The notes beneath the pieces are model-generated. The model was not told the DNA's origin. It ran no database searches and saw nothing but the letters and a program-made list of their open reading frames with translations. Of a stretch of 54,216 bases of DNA, positions 35,825 to 43,856 are shown piece after piece. The position numbers and the translations under genes are program-made. The first letter of the stretch is position 1. Every line of letters begins with the position of its first letter. Location of the stretch: the NCBI GenBank assembly GCA_029979005.1, contig JAPOIJ010000009.1:1-54216 (forward strand). Reading direction: 5' to 3'. Origin of the DNA: Planctomycetota bacterium (GTDB taxonomy: Bacteria; Planctomycetota; Planctomycetia; Pirellulales; Pirellulaceae).

Positions 35825-36388
35825 TCAGGATTTGTCTTGCCGGCCTACATTCCATTCCGTTTCCGGGCATCGGTCGAGCTGGTTCGTGTATCTCGCCAAT
35901 ACAAAAAGTAAGTCGCCGAGGCGATTAAGATAGATAAGCTCAAGTGATAAATCAGTTTTTGTTTCCGAGTTTATTAGCTCTACCAGTTGTCGTTCGGCGC
36001 GACGGCAAACGGATCTGGCAAGATGTAACGTACCACCGGTACGCCCGCCCCCAGGGAGGATAAACGCTTTGAGCGGAGCGAGCTCTTCATCGTATTGATC
36101 GATTGCTCTCTCTAATTCAGCCACTCTTTCCGGCGGGAAGTCTGGAATGCGGTCTGAACTGCTCAAACAGGCTGCGACTCGACTACCGAGGTCAAATAGG
36201 TCATGCTGGATCTGAGTCAGAAGCGCGTTGAGCGATACCGACTGATTTTCAACACGCGATAAACCAATAAAAGAGTTAACTTCGTCTATTGAACCACAGA
36301 CTTTGATCGCTGAATGAGACTTTGAAACACGCACTCCGCCGAGTAAGCCGGTTTCGCCTTGATCACCGGTTTTGGTATATATTTTCAT
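35825..36388 (-). CDS. pduO: Cob(I)yrinic acid a,c-diamide/cobalamin adenosyltransferase, PduO type
   Basis: A 187-residue PduO-type ATP:cob(I)alamin adenosyltransferase: KIYTKTGDQGETGLLGGVRV with the ATP-binding TKTGDxGxT motif, GSIDEVNSFIGLSR, FILPGGGRTGGTLHLARSVC with RRAERQ, and YLNRLGDLLFVLAR near the end. It converts cob(I)alamin to adenosylcobalamin in the cytosol. Length is normal. It is divergent from the Nudix gene, with only 63 bases between. No cobalamin riboswitch was recognised and no B12-dependent gene is adjacent. Confidence 0.95.
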   Translation of the reverse strand: MKIYTKTGDQGETGLLGGVRVSKSHSAIKVCGSIDEVNSFIGLSRVENQSVSLNALLTQIQHDLFDLGSRVAACLSSSDRIPDFPPERVAELERAIDQYDEELAPLKAFILPGGGRTGGTLHLARSVCRRAERQLVELINSETKTDLSLELIYLNRLGDLLFVLARYTNQLDRCPETEWNVGRQDKS

Positions 36389-36451: not shown

Positions 36452-36898
36452 GTGGCTAAAGTAAAATCTTGCGGATTTCTAATTTATCGAGATGATCCTA
36501 GCCCATCCTTCCTCTTAATGCGACATGCTGACCGCTGGGATCTGCCAAAGGGGCATGTGGACGAAGGAGAATCTAACCTTGAGTGTGCTTATCGTGAACT
36601 CGAAGAGGAAACCGGGATTCGGGCCGAACATGTTTTGATGGATGAGCACTTTAAGTTCAAGAACAAGTATGTCGTGAAATATGATGAAGCTGGTGAGGTG
36701 GTCAAAAAGAAGAAGTTGATTATCTACCTTGCGAAACTGTTGGTGCCGGTAGAAATTAATCCTACTGAGCATGAAGGATTTGAGTGGTTCTCTTGGTCGC
36801 CACCGCATCAAATTCAGAAAAAGACGATTGACCCATTGCTGCAGCAATTAGAGGACTACTGGAGCGAGGTCGACAGTAGAGTCCGCGGCAATATTTAA
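36452..36898 (+). CDS. Nudix hydrolase, diadenosine tetraphosphatase-like
   Basis: A 148-residue Nudix protein. The Nudix box is complete: GHVDEGESNLECAYRELEEE followed by TGI. The start MAKVKSCGFLIYRDDPSPSFLL and the WDLPKGHV phrase are typical of bis(5'-nucleosyl)-tetraphosphatases of the Ap4A type. It would clear dinucleoside polyphosphates or another nucleoside diphosphate derivative. The start codon is GTG 36452, with AAGGA about eight bases upstream. Substrate is inferred from family resemblance only. Confidence 0.9.
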   Translation: MAKVKSCGFLIYRDDPSPSFLLMRHADRWDLPKGHVDEGESNLECAYRELEEETGIRAEHVLMDEHFKFKNKYVVKYDEAGEVVKKKKLIIYLAKLLVPVEINPTEHEGFEWFSWSPPHQIQKKTIDPLLQQLEDYWSEVDSRVRGNI

Positions 36899-37308: not shown

Positions 37309-38064
37309 TTAGATCTCGGGGGTCGCGAAATACGACGTTCCTTGGCAGGCAAAGGTTGCGCATTGGCGGTTGTACTCCCAGCAATCTCGACAGTGCGGAG
37401 TTTTACATCGCTCACACAGCACCATTTGCTCATTAATCGCGCCGCTGCAGATTGGACACGTAATCGATTCCAGGACGGTTGCATTGTTTTCGTTTAGGAA
37501 ATCTAGCCCTTCAGCTGAAACTAGCATTAATTGATCAAAAAAATCGAGTGAATACCGGATGAAGTCATGCAGTGTGCCAACATCTTTGAGAAAACCGGGT
37601 TTTTGAATCAGCAACTTGCCTCGTTTGATTGAGATGTTGAGTTGATTGGGTTGAGATAATTTAAGAAGTCGAATTAAGAGAGTTTGGACATTGTAATTCA
37701 GTACCTTGTTTACTTGCTCGAATTGATTAGTGTGGACGGCGAATTGGGAGTTAAAGGCTACCTGTTTGAATTCGACAGGAAGAATCTTCTTGGTGCCTCG
37801 TTCTATTTTGGCGTTAAGCAGAGTTGTAATTTGAAGTTTTAGGTTGGGGTGGGGCCAATGCATGGCCAACTCGGTAATTTTTCCGTTGCTGAAGATCGAA
37901 TTCGTTTGGTTTTGAAGAAGGCAACTTGTCCGTCCGTAGTCAAACGCGAGCGTTGGTTTAATAAAACCAAAGCCGTAAGTCGCCCCGCCCGTTTTGCTTT
38001 TACCGACAAAATGCCCCTCAAGTTGAGAGTAGGCGCGATTCCATTTTCCAAATTGTTTTAACAT
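37309..38064 (-). CDS. RING-finger protein, candidate E3 ligase of the ubiquitin-like operon
   Basis: A 251-residue protein. Residues 1-195 form a beta-rich domain without recognised family (GKSKTGGATYGFGFIKPTLA, MHWPHPNLKLQITTLL). Residues 203-240 are a binuclear treble-clef/RING finger of the prokaryotic RING type: C203-x2-C206-x10-C217-x2-C220-x3-H224-C225-x2-C228-x6-C235-x4-C240, with the typical phrase CKTPHCRDCWEYNRQC. In eukaryotes RING domains bring charged E2 to substrate. It is the last gene of the five-gene operon, 70 bases after the JAMM gene. The N-terminal domain would be the substrate- or partner-binding part (inference). No transmembrane segment. Confidence 0.86.
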   Translation of the reverse strand: MLKQFGKWNRAYSQLEGHFVGKSKTGGATYGFGFIKPTLAFDYGRTSCLLQNQTNSIFSNGKITELAMHWPHPNLKLQITTLLNAKIERGTKKILPVEFKQVAFNSQFAVHTNQFEQVNKVLNYNVQTLLIRLLKLSQPNQLNISIKRGKLLIQKPGFLKDVGTLHDFIRYSLDFFDQLMLVSAEGLDFLNENNATVLESITCPICSGAINEQMVLCERCKTPHCRDCWEYNRQCATFACQGTSYFATPEI

Positions 38065-38134
38065 TGAGTTCTTTTTTCTTTGCCAGTCGGCACAGGCGAA
38101 AGGCTCGTCTTTGTTTCAACCTGTTGCAGGGAAA

Positions 38135-39607
38135 TTAAGGTTGCAGTTCTCGCTCGTTTTTTTCACCTGAGGGAATTTGCGAATGATCCACAAAAAACAT
38201 TTGGCTTGCATCGGAGGGCGAATTGGGAGTGTTAGGCCCATGAGAGGAGCGGTTAAGGTCCGCTGGTTTTTCAGAACCTTCACTTAGTTGAGGCGAAGCG
38301 ATTGATTTCGAGACTTCTTTTTTTCGGCTCGCCTGATTCAATAAGAGACCGGTTGCCAAAATTGCAAGGCCGCCTCCTCCAAAAATCGCCCAATACCATC
38401 CTGGGGGTATTTGATTTACCGGTGAATCTGAGAGCTCTGAATCATCACTCAGGTTGGATGATTGTTGAAACCTTTCTTTCAGTTCTGCTCTCGCTTTTTC
38501 GTGCGTTTCTAGCATTTCATTTATTTTTTGGGCATGGGCTTGTTGCTGTTGCTCAAGCGCGGCTTGGAAGGCTGAATTCTTGTTGGTTAAGTTTTCGATT
38601 AGCAACTGTTGGTTTTGATAACTCGATTGAAGTTGGTTTCGGGATATCTGAAGTTCGGTGTACTGGTCGACTAGTTGCGGGTAGCCGGTTTCATGGGTGA
38701 CGATTGCGGTAAGAATTTCGCGGTAAGCTTCTTCTTTTGGTGTCAATTCTACATTGGCATCGAGTTGAGGGTTGGCGTCTAATGTTTGAGTTAAGGTCCG
38801 TTGTTTATCGCTGTTTGATTTGCTTCCGAACCATTGGGTGTAGCTGAAAAAGCAGAGGAAGATAAACTGTACGACCAGTATGCCTGCGATGCAGATTTCA
38901 GAAATTGTCCTGCGGTTTTCCATCACGACGACGGGGGCGGAGTTTGTGCTGGGGAGTGTATATCGAGGATCTTGATTCAAGACAGGCTCCTTGTTGTAGA
39001 AATTTGCGTATTGCTCCAGTTCAGCACATCTCAAACGATTCGTGGTTAAGATGAAGCCTTGTGTTTGGCGTTTTGCTCTCGGGGAATCTCCTGTCCAATG
39101 AAACCAACCTCGGTCCTGTTTGCATGGATCGATCACCAAGGCAACATCGAGTGGCCGATTGAAAAAGTTATTGCAAATAAATAGGTCCATGCCGGATAGA
39201 AAGACACCCCAGTCGGGGTGAGTGTGATACCAGCCAACCATTTCTAAGTCCGGTCGATACCCTTCTCGCTGCCGTGTAATTTCTCGCCACGTTTCGTGTG
39301 TAAATTTAAACGTCCCTTTGGTGGCTTCGAAGTGAGTTGCTCTCAGACAGTCAGAAATGACGACAAATGGTTTACCAGTGTGATCGATGAACTGACGTCC
39401 GAGTAACACTCCGCCTAGTTCGACATTTGTATTGCTTAGAGCGTGAGCTTCCATGTCACGCTGGACATCGAGATCGACAAAAATAGCCAGGTCATCTGAA
39501 TCGATTTGGCCAACGGTCTTCGTTGAGAAATGAGCGTCCTCATCGGGCCGAATTGAGGTCTCGGGTTGGGCCTGTGTCATTTCTCCTAATTGAATCTCGT
39601 CATCCAT
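38135..39607 (-). CDS. Membrane-anchored JAMM/JAB deconjugating isopeptidase
   Basis: A 490-residue protein in three parts. Residues about 35-195 are a JAB/MPN domain with a complete JAMM zinc site: Glu63 (VELGGVLLG), His128 and His130 (GWYHTHPDWG), Ser138 and Asp141 (SGMD). A transmembrane helix (about 235-257) follows, then a coiled coil (about 290-385), then a second transmembrane helix (about 403-424) and a Ser/Asn-rich cytosolic tail. The catalytic domain would be cytosolic and the coiled coil outside the membrane. The ATG at 39607 is two bases after the E1 stop, so the two are coupled. It should cleave the ubiquitin-like protein from targets. Confidence 0.93.
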   Translation of the reverse strand: MDDEIQLGEMTQAQPETSIRPDEDAHFSTKTVGQIDSDDLAIFVDLDVQRDMEAHALSNTNVELGGVLLGRQFIDHTGKPFVVISDCLRATHFEATKGTFKFTHETWREITRQREGYRPDLEMVGWYHTHPDWGVFLSGMDLFICNNFFNRPLDVALVIDPCKQDRGWFHWTGDSPRAKRQTQGFILTTNRLRCAELEQYANFYNKEPVLNQDPRYTLPSTNSAPVVVMENRRTISEICIAGILVVQFIFLCFFSYTQWFGSKSNSDKQRTLTQTLDANPQLDANVELTPKEEAYREILTAIVTHETGYPQLVDQYTELQISRNQLQSSYQNQQLLIENLTNKNSAFQAALEQQQQAHAQKINEMLETHEKARAELKERFQQSSNLSDDSELSDSPVNQIPPGWYWAIFGGGGLAILATGLLLNQASRKKEVSKSIASPQLSEGSEKPADLNRSSHGPNTPNSPSDASQMFFVDHSQIPSGEKNERELQP

Positions 39608-39609
39608 GC

Positions 39610-40893
39610 CTAGCCGTCCTTGCGATGGGCTGGAGCATCAGTTGAGACCGTGCAATCGGATTGCTGGTTGCCTGCGTTTGCTGCAGAACGGTTCCGATCA
39701 GGTGAGTCGTTTTGTAATTTTACAAAGATCGTTTCCCTGCCGTCTGAGATTTTTATGATGTCGTATTCGGGGATTCCCAATTCGAAAAGAGTCTTGGTCG
39801 CCAAGTTGGAGTTGCACCCAATTTCACCAGTTGTGAGCGGGTGGCAAAGTTCTCTACATTGATGACAAAATCCATTTTCGGCGGTCACCCGGCTCAAAGG
39901 GATTTCTTCCAGCCGCTCGATGCCACAGGTGCGGCAATTAAGCGAAATAAGAAAATCTCGATCCAGTAAAATTTGCCAGGATTCGCTGTTCGGATCCAAG
40001 CTGCTTGTTATCCCCTGCAGTTGAAGAAACAATTCTTCAGCAGTTGCCGTTTTTGACATCAAGGGTAGATCAATAACTTCGTTATATGTCTCATGCGATA
40101 AGCAGTTTGGACGTCGGGGATATCGGGTTTGATAGAAATTATTGGCAAGTCCGTTAAAGACTAAAGCGGAACCTTCAGCGGATGGTAGTTCGTGAATTAA
40201 CTTAAGTGCTTCCTGGACTTGAAGTCCTCCAATAATTGAAGCGATTGTCGGCGCGGTTGGGACTTTGCCCTGTTGAATATCCTCTTTGCGTAAAAGTGGG
40301 CAGCTATATCGCAGCGAAATCAGGCGATAGTCATTCTCAGTCATCGCACACTCGTAACAGGCTCCTATTGGTGGACAGAAGACTTTGGCAACCCCGTTGA
40401 TTTCCTGGATTCCACCGTCAATCCAAGGGCGATTTGTTTTCCAGCACATTCGATTGATCCACAGTCGTGCCTCGCGGTTGTCGACGCAGCAAATAATGAG
40501 GCTCATGTCGGCAACGAACCCCAGCCCAATATCAGTGAGAACGTCACCAATGATCGGGTTGATCTTACAGTCTGGGTTTAACTCGCGGGCCATCTCTGCA
40601 GCAACCTGGGCCTTCGCGTGTCCTTCGTGAGATGAACGAAAAAGAACGGAACGTGAAAGGTTGGATCCTTGAACTTCATCGAAATCGATGATGTTAATTT
40701 CACCAATCCCCATCAAAGCGAGGTTCTTAATCACCTCATTTCCCAGCGCTCCTGCGCCAACCACCAGAATTCGAGCTGAAGCGATTTTCTCCTGCTCCCA
40801 CCAGGTGATCAATTTCAACCGTGAATACCTATCCGAATCGTCGATTACCATCGGTTCATCGGAATCAGAGGCGGATTTCAGGCTGGTTATCAT
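39610..40893 (-). CDS. E1-like ubiquitin-activating enzyme (ThiF/MoeB fold)
   Basis: A 427-residue E1-like enzyme. The adenylation domain (about 20-250) has VVGAGALGNEVIKNL (nucleotide loop), IIDFDEVQGSNLSR with Asn78 and Arg81, Lys94 (GHAKAQ), and Asp138 (CCVDNREAR), the residues that bind ATP and catalyse adenylation. Cys198 (RYSCPLL) is the best candidate for the thioester cysteine. A CxxC pair (C179, C182) is present. The C-terminal part (about 315-395) has a second zinc ribbon (C320, C323, C343, C346) and a beta-rich end (TLFELGIPEYDIIKISDGRE) that may recruit the E2. Single ThiF domain, so it probably works as a homodimer. Two bases separate it from the JAMM gene. Confidence 0.94.
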   Translation of the reverse strand: MITSLKSASDSDEPMVIDDSDRYSRLKLITWWEQEKIASARILVVGAGALGNEVIKNLALMGIGEINIIDFDEVQGSNLSRSVLFRSSHEGHAKAQVAAEMARELNPDCKINPIIGDVLTDIGLGFVADMSLIICCVDNREARLWINRMCWKTNRPWIDGGIQEINGVAKVFCPPIGACYECAMTENDYRLISLRYSCPLLRKEDIQQGKVPTAPTIASIIGGLQVQEALKLIHELPSAEGSALVFNGLANNFYQTRYPRRPNCLSHETYNEVIDLPLMSKTATAEELFLQLQGITSSLDPNSESWQILLDRDFLISLNCRTCGIERLEEIPLSRVTAENGFCHQCRELCHPLTTGEIGCNSNLATKTLFELGIPEYDIIKISDGRETIFVKLQNDSPDRNRSAANAGNQQSDCTVSTDAPAHRKDG

Positions 40894-40956
40894 TTTCTGT
40901 TGCCTAGTTTTGTGGATGAAGACGGTAAGCTTGTTGAAATTCTAGGAACTGGCTTT

Positions 40957-41655
40957 TCAGTCCAGGAACATGATTTCTGCGGTTCGAGCGTGGGATGGGT
41001 CGGCGACTAATTTTGCGTCGATGATTTCTATCCCAGATTCCAGAATTTCGATTCCGTCGTCTGTGATTTCCACAACTCGCATTTGTTCAAGATGATCGTT
41101 GGGAGCGATTGCACGTCGCGATGGAGTGGGTTGAGAGGACTTATTGGGAGGGGGATTGGAACCCCCAATGAGATTGCGAATGGGACGGTGGTCGATTGGG
41201 AATCTGGTCTCAGGTTGCGAGCGAGCCCAAAGAGCTGCTTCGCGGTTGTATGGGCTTTCCGAATCAAAGTTCTTATAGCGGATCATATCCCAAAGCATCG
41301 TGCTCATTTCGCACAGAGTTAAGCTTGGAACCCAGTGTGTCCCGTAGCCGCCAAGGCAAACGACGCCGTTGTTTGAAATGTTGGGATGAAAAATATTGGT
41401 TTCCCAAAGCAGCCCTGGCGCTAAACGCGGATATGCGGATCCAAGGTCGACGCTGACAACGTGCTTCGCAGTTAAATTGATTCCGGAAAAGGAAGATTTT
41501 TTAAGGCCGTTTCCGCGAAACGTTAAGCGGTATTTAGTCGGTAGAGAACGAGAAGAACCAACGGTATCAAATGAAAAAATAGAACTCTCTTTTTGGAGTA
41601 GTTGTAGCGATTCGAAATCAGATTGAAGGCGTCGTTCGCGAGGAGATTTTCGCAT
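40957..41655 (-). CDS. E2-like ubiquitin-conjugating enzyme
   Basis: A 232-residue protein with an E2 fold. The core (about 40-150) reads like eukaryotic E2s: AYPRLAPGLLWETNIFHPNI, HPN motif at 90-92, catalytic Cys100 in NGVVCLGGYGTHWVP, the Trp-x-Pro after it, LTLCEMSTMLWDMI and SPYNREAALWARSQ. Residues 150-232 are an extension with a Ser/Pro-rich linker and an acidic end (VVEITDDGIEILESGIEIID), which could bind E1, RING or target. The enzyme would receive the ubiquitin-like protein from the E1 as a thioester and pass it to lysine. It sits between the Ubl gene (49 bases) and the E1 gene (63 bases). Confidence 0.93.
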   Translation of the reverse strand: MRKSPRERRLQSDFESLQLLQKESSIFSFDTVGSSRSLPTKYRLTFRGNGLKKSSFSGINLTAKHVVSVDLGSAYPRLAPGLLWETNIFHPNISNNGVVCLGGYGTHWVPSLTLCEMSTMLWDMIRYKNFDSESPYNREAALWARSQPETRFPIDHRPIRNLIGGSNPPPNKSSQPTPSRRAIAPNDHLEQMRVVEITDDGIEILESGIEIIDAKLVADPSHARTAEIMFLD

Positions 41656-41704
41656 TTTGTTTTCTCAAAAAAAACTTTTGAAAGGCGGGGCGAATCCGGG
41701 TTGA

Positions 41705-41992
41705 TTATCCGGCAACAATCTCGGGATAAATGATGAGATGATCGCCTTTGGAAACATTGGCGTTGACGAGCGTTTCAGTTTCGTGGAGTCGCCGCCCACC
41801 TTCTTTGTGATCGAGGCTGTAGCTCATCGGCTGCCCATCCGGTCCGATGGTTGGCAAGTTCATTTTGGTGATGATGTTGGGAAGAATACGCTGAACCGTA
41901 ATCGAATCCGAAACGATCGCCTCTACGCTTTTCGAACCGGTCTGATCTAAAAACGTTACCTGTGTCCCCTGTTTTTCCGAGGTTTGCGTCAT
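41705..41992 (-). CDS. Ubiquitin-like modifier protein (YukD-like)
   Basis: A 95-residue beta-grasp protein, first gene of the operon. The pattern VTFLDQTGSKSVEAIV, ITVQRILPNIITKMN, SYSLDHKEGGRRLHE, TLVNANVSKGDHLIIYPE follows the YukD/EsaB-like ubiquitin fold. It ends ...IVAG with Gly95 as the final residue, so the C-terminal carboxylate for activation is exposed without processing. Lysines at 7, 21, 43, 63 and 82 could in principle accept further copies. The start ATG 41992 has AGGAA about 12 bases upstream; an in-frame TTG at 42094 would add 34 unlikely residues. Its neighbours are E2, E1, JAMM and RING, which is the main support for a modifier role. Confidence 0.88.
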   Translation of the reverse strand: MTQTSEKQGTQVTFLDQTGSKSVEAIVSDSITVQRILPNIITKMNLPTIGPDGQPMSYSLDHKEGGRRLHETETLVNANVSKGDHLIIYPEIVAG

Positions 41993-42723: not shown

Positions 42724-43109
42724 AACCCGAATTCTGAATGAACGGTTTTCAGTTAAAACCCAACGCGAGATTTAAACTAGAACGCTTGTCCCTCTAGCGG
42801 AAGCCTACTGTTGCCGCATTTCTCTCCCATCGGCCGGTTTTTAGGCAATCCAAGCCGTACTTTGGAGAAAATCAGCTTGACGAAATCGATTGGGCTGGAG
42901 GGAGATCCGACGTGAATTCCCCTTGTTTCGGCTTTGGGTCGTAAACCGATTATGCGGGTTGTATGGGTCGCTTTGGACAAAAAAGGAGCTTTGAATTGGT
43001 GGTGATCAGCGATTAGGTAAATCTTGACCTAGGTTTTCATATCGGGCCAGGAAGCCTTCAGCGAACTTTGCTGCCCCCCAAATTTTGGCAATTACGACTG
43101 AGATACACA
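42724..43109. other. Divergent intergenic region
   Basis: About 390 bases between the GNAT gene and the plus-strand hypothetical, expected to hold two promoters. A 67-codon minus-strand frame (42777-42980) has no ribosome binding site or resemblance and is rejected. No RNA gene seen. Confidence 0.45.
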
Positions 43110-43856
43110 ATGAGTTATTTAAATCGCTTCTTTCAAGAAGTATTCGACAATAATCCGCTCCCTTCGACTGGAAGCAGTTTCGATCAAGCGACGGATGCGG
43201 AAATGGCCGCTCATCTGCAAATGGATCAATACGATTCATTCCAGTTAACCGATGCAATTCGCCCAGCGATGGATTTGAAAATCAAGCCAAGTCAGGGCTA
43301 TCGGCACGATACCTATGTCGATCAGGAAACAAAAGCAAAGGTGCCAGTCATCATGGCTGCTGCATCGAGGGAGCAGTTATTCCCGCTGTTCATTCGTCTA
43401 ATTCAACGTCTCGGCCCTGTTGTTGATGTTGTTCTTGAGTCTAGCCACACCCAGGGTGAGGGTGGACATGTAGATCTCTACCGAGAACACATCGACATGC
43501 CGGTGCTGACCAGTATCTTGTGGGATTATGAAGACTTACTGCTCAACGATGGATGCACAGGCATTGCAGTCTTAAACCCAAACACTCCTCAAGAAATTCA
43601 ATTTGAAGAGCACAAGTTACTTATCATTTACGGCAGCCCGTTGGAGCCATTTGAGTTTACCCTCGAGTCACATGGAGTTGGCGAGAACGAGGGGATTAAA
43701 TTTATAACGGAAGCGGAACATATCCATTCCTCCTCGGATGAGTTCGCCGAACAATTTTCTCAGTTGAAGACCGCGTTGGGTTTGGATGGCGAGCATGGGA
43801 CGCCAAAGCAGACTCGCGGCGGAGACAACGGAGAAGAATACGGCGAGACTTTTTAA
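43110..43856 (+). CDS. Conserved hypothetical protein
   Basis: A 248-residue soluble, acidic protein, start ATG 43110 (MSYLNRFFQEVFDNNPLP). The central part (PVIMAAASREQLFPLFIRLI, PVVDVVLESSH, DMPVLTSILWDYEDLLLNDG, GIAVLNPNTPQEIQFEEHKL) looks like an alpha/beta fold. The last 40 residues are charged and Gly-rich. I do not recognise the family; the sequence quality suggests lineage conservation in planctomycetes. Nothing links it to the neighbouring ubiquitin-like operon except position. Confidence 0.75.
   Translation: MSYLNRFFQEVFDNNPLPSTGSSFDQATDAEMAAHLQMDQYDSFQLTDAIRPAMDLKIKPSQGYRHDTYVDQETKAKVPVIMAAASREQLFPLFIRLIQRLGPVVDVVLESSHTQGEGGHVDLYREHIDMPVLTSILWDYEDLLLNDGCTGIAVLNPNTPQEIQFEEHKLLIIYGSPLEPFEFTLESHGVGENEGIKFITEAEHIHSSSDEFAEQFSQLKTALGLDGEHGTPKQTRGGDNGEEYGETF

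Follow-up and report, generated by a model that had tools for sequence, protein, structure and literature searches.

Can a bacterium conjugate a ubiquitin-like protein by means of a complete cascade, and what would such a cascade serve? The question is raised by a stretch of 54,216 nucleotides from a planctomycete of the family Pirellulaceae (contig JAPOIJ010000009.1 of assembly GCA_029979005.1), hereafter the window, in which five genes lie in series on the minus strand. In order of transcription they encode a ubiquitin-like protein (Ubl), an E2, an E1, a JAMM peptidase, and a RING protein, with intergenic gaps of 49, 63, 2, and 70 bases. It is likely, in our judgement, that this operon is a Ubl pathway that conjugates, resident and chromosomal, with both conjugation and deconjugation. 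The source assembly (G000, of which the window is contig G000:C12) comprises 5.06 Mb in 322 contigs and is 92.5% complete. The features of the operon are as follows (aa, amino acids).

41705..41992, minus strand: Ubl, YukD-type beta-grasp protein of 95 aa ending in ..PEIVAG; Gly95 codon at 41710-41708; PF08817, 2.9e-13
40957..41655, minus strand: E2, UBC fold, 232 aa; PF00179 UQ_con, 3.2e-12; HPN and Cys100 (codon at 41358-41356)
40974-40960, minus strand: IMFLD, C-terminal end of the diverged E2 tail
39610..40893, minus strand: E1, single ThiF/MoeB-type adenylation domain, 427 aa; PF00899, 8e-55; candidate Cys198 (codon at 40302-40300)
38135..39607, minus strand: JAMM, 490 aa; JAB PF01398, 1.1e-8, and Prok-JAB PF14464, 1.4e-6; E63/H128/H130/S138/D141
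37309..38064, minus strand: RING protein, 251 aa; Prok-RING_1 PF14446, 1.3e-8; N-terminal alpha/beta domain and C-terminal zinc finger
37458-37345, minus strand: zinc finger of the RING protein, residues 203-240; C203 C206 C217 C220 H224 C228 C235 C240

The operon and its products

All five proteins exceed the curated Pfam cut-offs for their families; in NCBIfam no model reaches its cut-off among the matches listed (the best 25 of 30 for E1). The window genome has a single E2, a single RING match, and a single E1 at E <= 1e-40. The first-pass annotation of this DNA had described the same five genes, gaps, and one-strand order, and the open reading frames (ORFs) give the same coordinates, with the families assigned by Pfam. 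The residues that it had singled out, namely, E2 Cys100 after HPN, E1 Cys198, and JAMM E63/H128/H130/S138/D141, are found at those positions, and its reading of the operon as a putative ubiquitin-type cascade is supported by the agreement of family assignment, conserved catalytic residues, and gene linkage.

Thirty-one loci of the family were compared: the window, 13 named contigs, and 17 of 20 further stretches taken around RING matches, with L046, L047, and L049 left out as the same contigs as L006, L009, and L012. The named E1 relatives belong to Mariniblastus, Pirellulaceae, and Planctomycetaceae metagenome-assembled genomes, and the nearest is 96% identical. E1 is present in 25 of the 31 loci, one of them holding a fragment, and is missing from six (L051, L055-L058, and L064). 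The compact order Ubl-E2-E1-JAMM-RING is found in the window and in 13-14 further loci (L003, L006-L015, L048, L059, and L065). Contig ends truncate the RING gene of L003 and L013 as well as the loci L004, L005, and L054. Seven others (L050, L052, L053, and L060-L063) have a longer order, Ubl-E2a-short JAMM-E1-long JAMM-E2b-RING, with 1-3 RING genes. The window form is the compact one: it has a single E2, a single JAMM, and a RING protein lacking a predicted transmembrane (TM) helix. Catalytic residues are intact in 24/24 E1 rows (a 105-aa fragment left out), 24/24 E2a rows, 25/25 long JAMMs, and 7/7 short JAMMs.

All five genes are under purifying selection. For the Ubl, the pairwise ratio of nonsynonymous to synonymous change (omega) against L006 and L009 is about 0.02, and for the remaining four genes it lies at 0.06-0.15; against L003 the range is 0.00-0.25, RING not being comparable there. 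Over the three relatives together, the Ubl has 0.00-0.02 and the remaining genes 0.06-0.25; these figures are rough, with synonymous divergence (dS) near or above 1 for several genes.

In E1, the motifs GAGALGNE, DNREARLW, and LRYSCP occur in 24/24 family rows, again without the fragment, and the C-terminal domain carries two invariant CxxC pairs (C320/C323/C343/C346). The AlphaFold2 (AF2) model, with a predicted local distance difference test score (pLDDT) of 83.5, consists of one adenylation domain and the C-terminal domain, and its best matches in the PDB are UBA3 of the NEDD8 E1 and ThiF.

HPN and the cysteine of E2a, the counterpart of the single E2 of the window, are kept in 24/24 family rows. 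Its tail, 35-116 residues long, diverges freely and nevertheless closes with I-x-F-[LIV]-[DEN] in 24/24, at the end or one residue short of it. A stricter form of this motif occurs 24 times in E2a tails versus 0.16 expected, with a maximum of 3 in 500 shuffles. Outside the family, four E2s of f80 and f5 end in ILIIE, ILFIE, or LLIIE, and the other E2s are without such an end. The motif, which resembles SUMO-interacting motifs, is taken here as a candidate docking peptide. Among 9 rows of E2b, the second E2 of the longer operons, 8 no longer have the cysteine, and HPN is retained in 7 of these; the remaining row (L057) possesses both HPN and the cysteine and represents another E2 type. We take the cysteine-less E2b to be, in make-up, like a ubiquitin E2 variant (UEV). 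These proteins (L050, L052, L053, L056, and L060-L063) often have a hydrophobic-acidic tail motif of their own, such as VFFIGE or VLYIGDE.

The JAMM pattern is intact in 25/25 long homologues, with H128-THP in the window. Hydropathy predicts a TM helix at 233-258 of the window JAMM and a weaker one at 405-423; in the long JAMMs a TM helix is predicted in 25/25 rows, for the most part around residue 235-260, and another one in 19/25, one of the six misses being cut by a contig end. A second Prok-JAB match of the window genome (G000:C55:15640-15861), under the family cut-off, lies within a 343-aa frame.

The eight zinc ligands of the window RING are invariant over 25 rows, and eight ligands are found in 35/35 RING ORFs longer than 200 aa, 34 by pattern and one by eye (two truncated ORFs left out). 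The textbook RING pattern is C3HC4, with C4HC3 as an alternative. The ligand spacing here, Cx2C-x10-Cx2C-x4-[H/C]x2C-x6-C-x4-C, is nearer to C4HC3, which qualifies the RING finger claimed at first. The Pfam text on PF14446 describes a bacterial RING protein with a TM helix, which is not a core feature. By hydropathy, an N-terminal TM helix is present in 29 of the 35 ORFs, a C-terminal one in L057, and none in five (the window and L006-L009). Since 29 of 35 relatives have the N-terminal helix and these five have none, the window clade has probably lost the membrane anchor of the RING protein. The AF2 model of this protein (pLDDT 82.1) matches the mycobacterial TtfA (6t84, E 1.4e-5) and also chain 7 of the human ribosome-TMCO1 translocon entry 6w6l (E 9.6e-4); on our reading of the alignment lengths, both matches seem to run mainly via the N-terminal domain.

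The Ubl has a mean column identity of 76% over 15 rows, and in all 10 genomes searched the YukD-type Ubl is single and adjoins E1. All 43 Ubls found (duplicates left out) share an ..AG anchor, at which 25 end and beyond which 18 extend by 1-51 residues. Within the family, 20/24 end at AG and 4/24 have a tail of 1-7 residues, all four in operons with a short JAMM (4/7 with it vs 0/17 without; Fisher p 0.003, the rows being related and not corrected for kinship). This association fits a trimming of pro-Ubl by the short JAMM and is only suggestive. We infer that the window JAMM would serve deconjugation and that the trimming of tailed pro-Ubl would fall to the short JAMM.

Distribution and chromosomal place

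In 149 genomes of the family, Prok-RING_1 matches were found in 65 (61 above the cut-off) and E1 at E <= 1e-40 in 63. Both are carried by 60 genomes, E1 alone by 3, RING alone by 5, and neither by 81 (Fisher p 1e-31); of the five with RING only, four belong to genus g19. The co-occurrence in relatives on which the first-pass annotation had made the cascade depend is therefore found, in 60 of 149 genomes. RING lies at most 10 kb from E1 in 46 of the 60, and the remaining 14 include fragmented assemblies as well as separations such as G053, G097, and G019. Among 392 genomes of the phylum, for which the four best first-look E1 candidates per genome were scored, RING matches occur in 64 (44 above the cut-off) and E1 in 31, and 29 of these 31 also have RING (Fisher p 8e-24, lists compared by hand). 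In G067, of the same genus as the window, no RING, E1, or E2 match was found. As the gene order recurs in relatives, omega is low, and E1 and RING co-occur, the operon is more than a product of chance.

The place of the operon on the chromosome can be followed by genes outside the system, three of which serve as locus markers.

36452..36898, plus strand: NUDIX hydrolase, PF00293, 2.8e-19; matched in 15/31 loci
35825..36388, minus strand: cobalamin adenosyltransferase, PF01923, 2.2e-54; matched in 16/31 loci
43068..43856, plus strand: 262-aa protein on the Ubl side, no Pfam match at 0.01; matched in 20/31 loci

The window genes were searched for in 31 loci (L003-L015 and L048-L065, L049 repeating L012), whose flanks vary in length, so that some missed neighbours are not real absences. 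Of four neighbours (the 262-aa protein, NUDIX, cobalamin adenosyltransferase, and P-II), one or more are matched in 24 of the 31, across eleven genera, and in 12 loci the 262-aa protein occurs along with NUDIX or cobalamin adenosyltransferase. L051 and L056-L058 are RING stretches at other chromosomal places. By Pfam, each of the six flanking genes scanned is either a housekeeping gene or without a known family, and NUDIX, cobalamin adenosyltransferase, P-II, GlnD, and GNAT are among the flanks. A tree of 44 E1 rows contains a branch that has all 24 family rows on the same side (support 91/91, present in 92% of 200 bootstrap trees); among the other families, f56 and f67 are split, each with two E1s in one genome. 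Given that the neighbours recur in several genera and that the family E1s group in the tree, we read the history of the operon in Pirellulaceae as mainly vertical inheritance with repeated loss. The earlier suggestion of a resident pathway and not a defence island agrees with the recurring neighbours, the E1 grouping, and the housekeeping flanks, two loci (L012 and L053) deviating.

Carriage of the operon by mobile elements was considered and rejected. E1 gave matches in 343 plasmid records, all below 60% identity and one covering at least 80% of the query, the best-ranked being 35.6% identical (Crinalium); the 22 matches in phage records are all below 60% identity and none covers 80%, and a search of viral contigs for close relatives of the Ubl found none.

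Two observations concern RING genes at other places. In L055 and L064 (G018 and G124, genus g19, no E1 match), a lone diverged RING gene stands among the usual neighbours of the operon, as a remnant would, and may be a remnant or a repurposed gene. G019 (L057 and G019:C1:1534428-1535567) has two E1s, and at a separate place a RING gene and an E2 of a type found in other families, perhaps a second system.

Other planctomycete families

In 20 stretches of other families, chosen by E1 matches, profile searches found Ubl in 19, E2 in 17, and JAMM in 18; several of these stretches end at contig ends. An order that recurs, with variations, is Ubl-E1-JAMM-[membrane protein with C-terminal FHA]-RINGs-E2. 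The FHA protein, a multi-pass membrane protein, stands between the JAMM and RING genes in L070, L072-L076, L079, L080, and L085, and its domain is matched by PF00498 in L074 (5.8e-12) and was read by eye in eight other proteins. Its presence suggests a possible link of these operons to protein phosphorylation. The E2 ORFs of L074, L075, L079, L080, and L085 have cysteine-rich C-terminal ends resembling zinc fingers. Eight ORFs with a double CxxC only, picked up by the iterated RING profile, were left out of the RING count.

The core operon of family f23 is E1-Ubl-E2-JAMM, and no RING lies alongside it in stretches L081-L083. Prok-RING_1 matches at E <= 1e-3 number 74 in G325 (with 150 of 157 candidates scored and about 29 matches above the curated cut-off), 49 in G338, and 24 in G166, all of f23, and 37 in G213 of family f56. 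They are dispersed over the contigs (in G325, loci L086-L125), and the contamination estimates of the four assemblies are 2-7%. Twenty of the best G325 matches all have the first six ligands and the Pfam Prok-RING_1 domain, with little else in Pfam besides other zinc-finger models; a TM helix is predicted by hydropathy in 18 of these ORFs, whose starts are unrefined and whose lengths may be overestimates. A weaker sample, with 12 of 20 under the cut-off, has seven ligands in 20/20. E2 is single in 4 of the 5 genomes searched. A lineage other than that of the window appears to have multiplied the RING component, and some planctomycetes could have a eukaryote-like hierarchy in which a single Ubl, E1, and active E2 serve dozens of dispersed RING ligases, a view that we hold tentatively and judge a little short of even. 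If it is true, the dispersed RINGs, the cysteine-less E2s, and the hydrophobic-acidic E2 tails, the latter two in the family of the window, would together represent E3 diversity elaborated independently in bacteria.

Proposed pathway, rivals, and known systems

From the presence, families, residues, selection, linkage, and location of the five genes, we infer a pathway whose catalytic steps, substrates, membrane site, and regulatory outcome may be drawn as follows. E1 would adenylate the C-terminal Gly95 of the Ubl, which should need no trimming since its gene ends at AG. The Ubl would then pass to E1 Cys198 as a thioester and on to E2 Cys100, the IMFLD-type tail holding E2 to E1, the Ubl, or the ligase. 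The zinc finger of the RING protein would bind the loaded E2 and its TtfA-like N-terminal domain the substrate, so that the Ubl could be transferred to a lysine on a membrane-associated target. The membrane-anchored JAMM would take the Ubl off again, the site being the cytoplasmic face of the inner membrane. For the inner-membrane site and for a regulatory, not destructive, outcome, the balance seems to us about even.

Several observations weigh against such a pathway. Cys198 lies in a loop of E1 (195-199) that is modelled at low confidence. The zinc finger has structural matches to the p62 ZZ domain, with weak E-values of 0.2 and up, and in sequence it comes closest to the cellulose synthase RING (1weo, E 6e-5); E2 binding is therefore not assured. 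Searched against solved structures, the Ubl profile gave no relative and a single match, at E 0.14, to a protein that is not a Ubl. No E1 match is present in 86 of the 149 family genomes, and the pathway is therefore dispensable. G039, G051, and G133 have E1 but no RING match, in G053, G097, and G019 the two genes lie far apart, and in the other families a full RING stands near E1 in 10 of the 20 stretches (L067, L070, L072-L076, L079, L080, and L085). Finally, L012/L049 and L053 carry the operon without any of the four usual neighbours.

An anti-phage role, in which the Ubl would be conjugated to phage or signalling proteins as in Bil and Cap2 of the cyclic-oligonucleotide-based antiphage signalling system (CBASS), seems improbable to us. 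E1 does match PADLOC E1-E2 models (best 4e-19) and BilD (9e-9), and the JAMM matches PADLOC JAB models (6e-6), PADLOC giving no cut-offs; the operon is patchy, with E1 in 63/149 family genomes, and according to a 2025 review phage defence appears to be the main role of the bacterial Ubl systems investigated to date (PMC12687455). On the other hand, the same neighbours accompany the operon in several genera, a branch of the tree has the family E1s all on the same side, E1 is single and not fused to E2, and no close relative of the Ubl was found among viral contigs. The flanks (NUDIX, cobalamin adenosyltransferase, P-II, GlnD, and GNAT) are housekeeping genes by Pfam, not having been scanned with PADLOC; neighbours, E1 tree, and flanks together disfavour a defence island. 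A comparably low probability is given to a degradation tag, by which the Ubl would mark proteins for an ATP-dependent protease, like Pup or like ubiquitin with the proteasome. Its Ubl, E3-like, and deconjugase parts do resemble the eukaryotic degradation cascade, but the JAMM is the sole protease among the five operon genes. A two-subunit 20S proteasome would yield two PF00227 matches. The window genome, at its 92.5% completeness, has one, of HslV size and presumably HslV, and E1-bearing G053 and G097 have none; a proteasomal fate is therefore unlikely.

Two further roles are far less credible. As a sulfur carrier, the Ubl would receive a thiocarboxylate from the MoeB/ThiF-like E1, with the JAMM acting like the peptidase of CysO. 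Within NCBIfam, E1 does score best against ThiF and MoeB, yet it stays far below them (136 bits vs a cut-off of 275), and neither a RING nor an E2 with intact HPN and cysteine has a known role there. It is just as hard to believe that the Ubl is a YukD-like structural subunit of type VII secretion with E1 and E2 as passengers. The Ubl belongs to the YukD family, B. subtilis YukD is reported as not conjugated (PMC1779556), and 5 of 10 genomes searched (G048, G001, G097, G053, and G204) have one WXG100 match each, that of G048 lying on the contig of the operon about 34 kb off. Nonetheless, the window genome, G100, G119, G529, and G325, all with the Ubl beside E1, have no WXG100 match, and the Ubl terminus is kept at AG. 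The WXG100 partner of YukD was not found in G000, G100, or G119, EssC not having been searched for; the type VII role is thus disfavoured by the lack of a WXG100 match in the window genome, though half of the genomes searched have one.

If the preferred reading, a resident pathway that conjugates, is true, this vertically kept cascade, with its RING protein and membrane JAMM at a locus that is largely fixed, would be a first bacterial case, to our knowledge, of Ubl tagging as cell regulation. The relatives differ usefully, having a tailed or untailed Ubl, one or two JAMMs, an active or cysteine-less E2, and an anchored or free RING protein.

The arrangement itself is not new. According to a 2014 review citing Burroughs 2011, operons akin to the five-gene cluster of archaea occur in bacteria of the Actinobacteria, Planctomycetes, and Acidobacteria, and the five-gene arrangement is thereby already in print as a prediction for Planctomycetes (PMC4197634). 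The predicted Prok-RING_1 operons (PF14446) have the same RING family as the window. The window shares with this operon type five genes adjoining on one strand and intact catalytic residues, and its RING protein lacks the expected TM helix. No experimental study of this operon type was recognised in the literature searched. What the present comparison adds are the longer operons with a cysteine-less E2b and a second JAMM, the E2 tail motif, the probable loss of the RING anchor in the window clade, and the RING numbers of the other family; of these, E2b, the tail motif, and the RING numbers may be new. The operon also bears on the statement of a December 2014 survey that no bacterial genome analysed holds the complete toolkit (PMC4327156).

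With Bil (BilABCD) the operon shares Ubl, E1, E2, and JAB genes in one operon, and Bil forms cysteine thioesters on E1 and E2; as far as the passages seen describe it, Bil has an E1 with inactive and active adenylation domains and a cysteine domain, a BilA with two ubiquitin-like domains, and no RING named (PMC11354881). Here, unlike in Bil, there are one adenylation domain (ThiF, 427 aa), one beta-grasp domain, and a RING. CBASS Cap2/Cap3 has an E2-E1 fusion and a neighbouring CD-NTase, whereas E2 and E1 are separate genes in the window; the matches of the six scanned flanking genes, where there are any, are to other families, no search having been aimed at CD-NTase. Bub operons have a diverged chemistry, with E1 and E2 lacking the usual catalytic cysteines and another protease, unlike the present operon, in which Cys198 and Cys100 are each kept in 24/24 rows and the protease is a JAMM. 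What the two have in common is a bacterial set of Ubl, E1, E2, and protease (PMC12687455). With type VII YukD the operon shares the Ubl family PF08817; it differs in its E1, E2, JAMM, and RING partners and in the absence of a WXG100 match in G000, YukD being named only with secretion genes in the part seen of Iyer 2006 (PMC1779556).

The first description of the operon as closer to a eukaryotic cascade applies better to its list of parts than to its sequences, which include a MoeB/ThiF-like single-domain E1 and a YukD-like Ubl ending in AG. The cascade of Caldiarchaeum subterraneum, which functions in vitro, is likewise encoded by an operon, with ubiquitin, E1, E2, and a small RING, an Rpn11/JAMM gene adjoining it (PMC5654768); its ubiquitin is 31% identical to human ubiquitin and has a GG end after trimming. 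In the window, by contrast, the YukD-like Ubl ends in AG without a tail, the RING protein has a large extra domain, and the JAMM is predicted to be anchored in the membrane.

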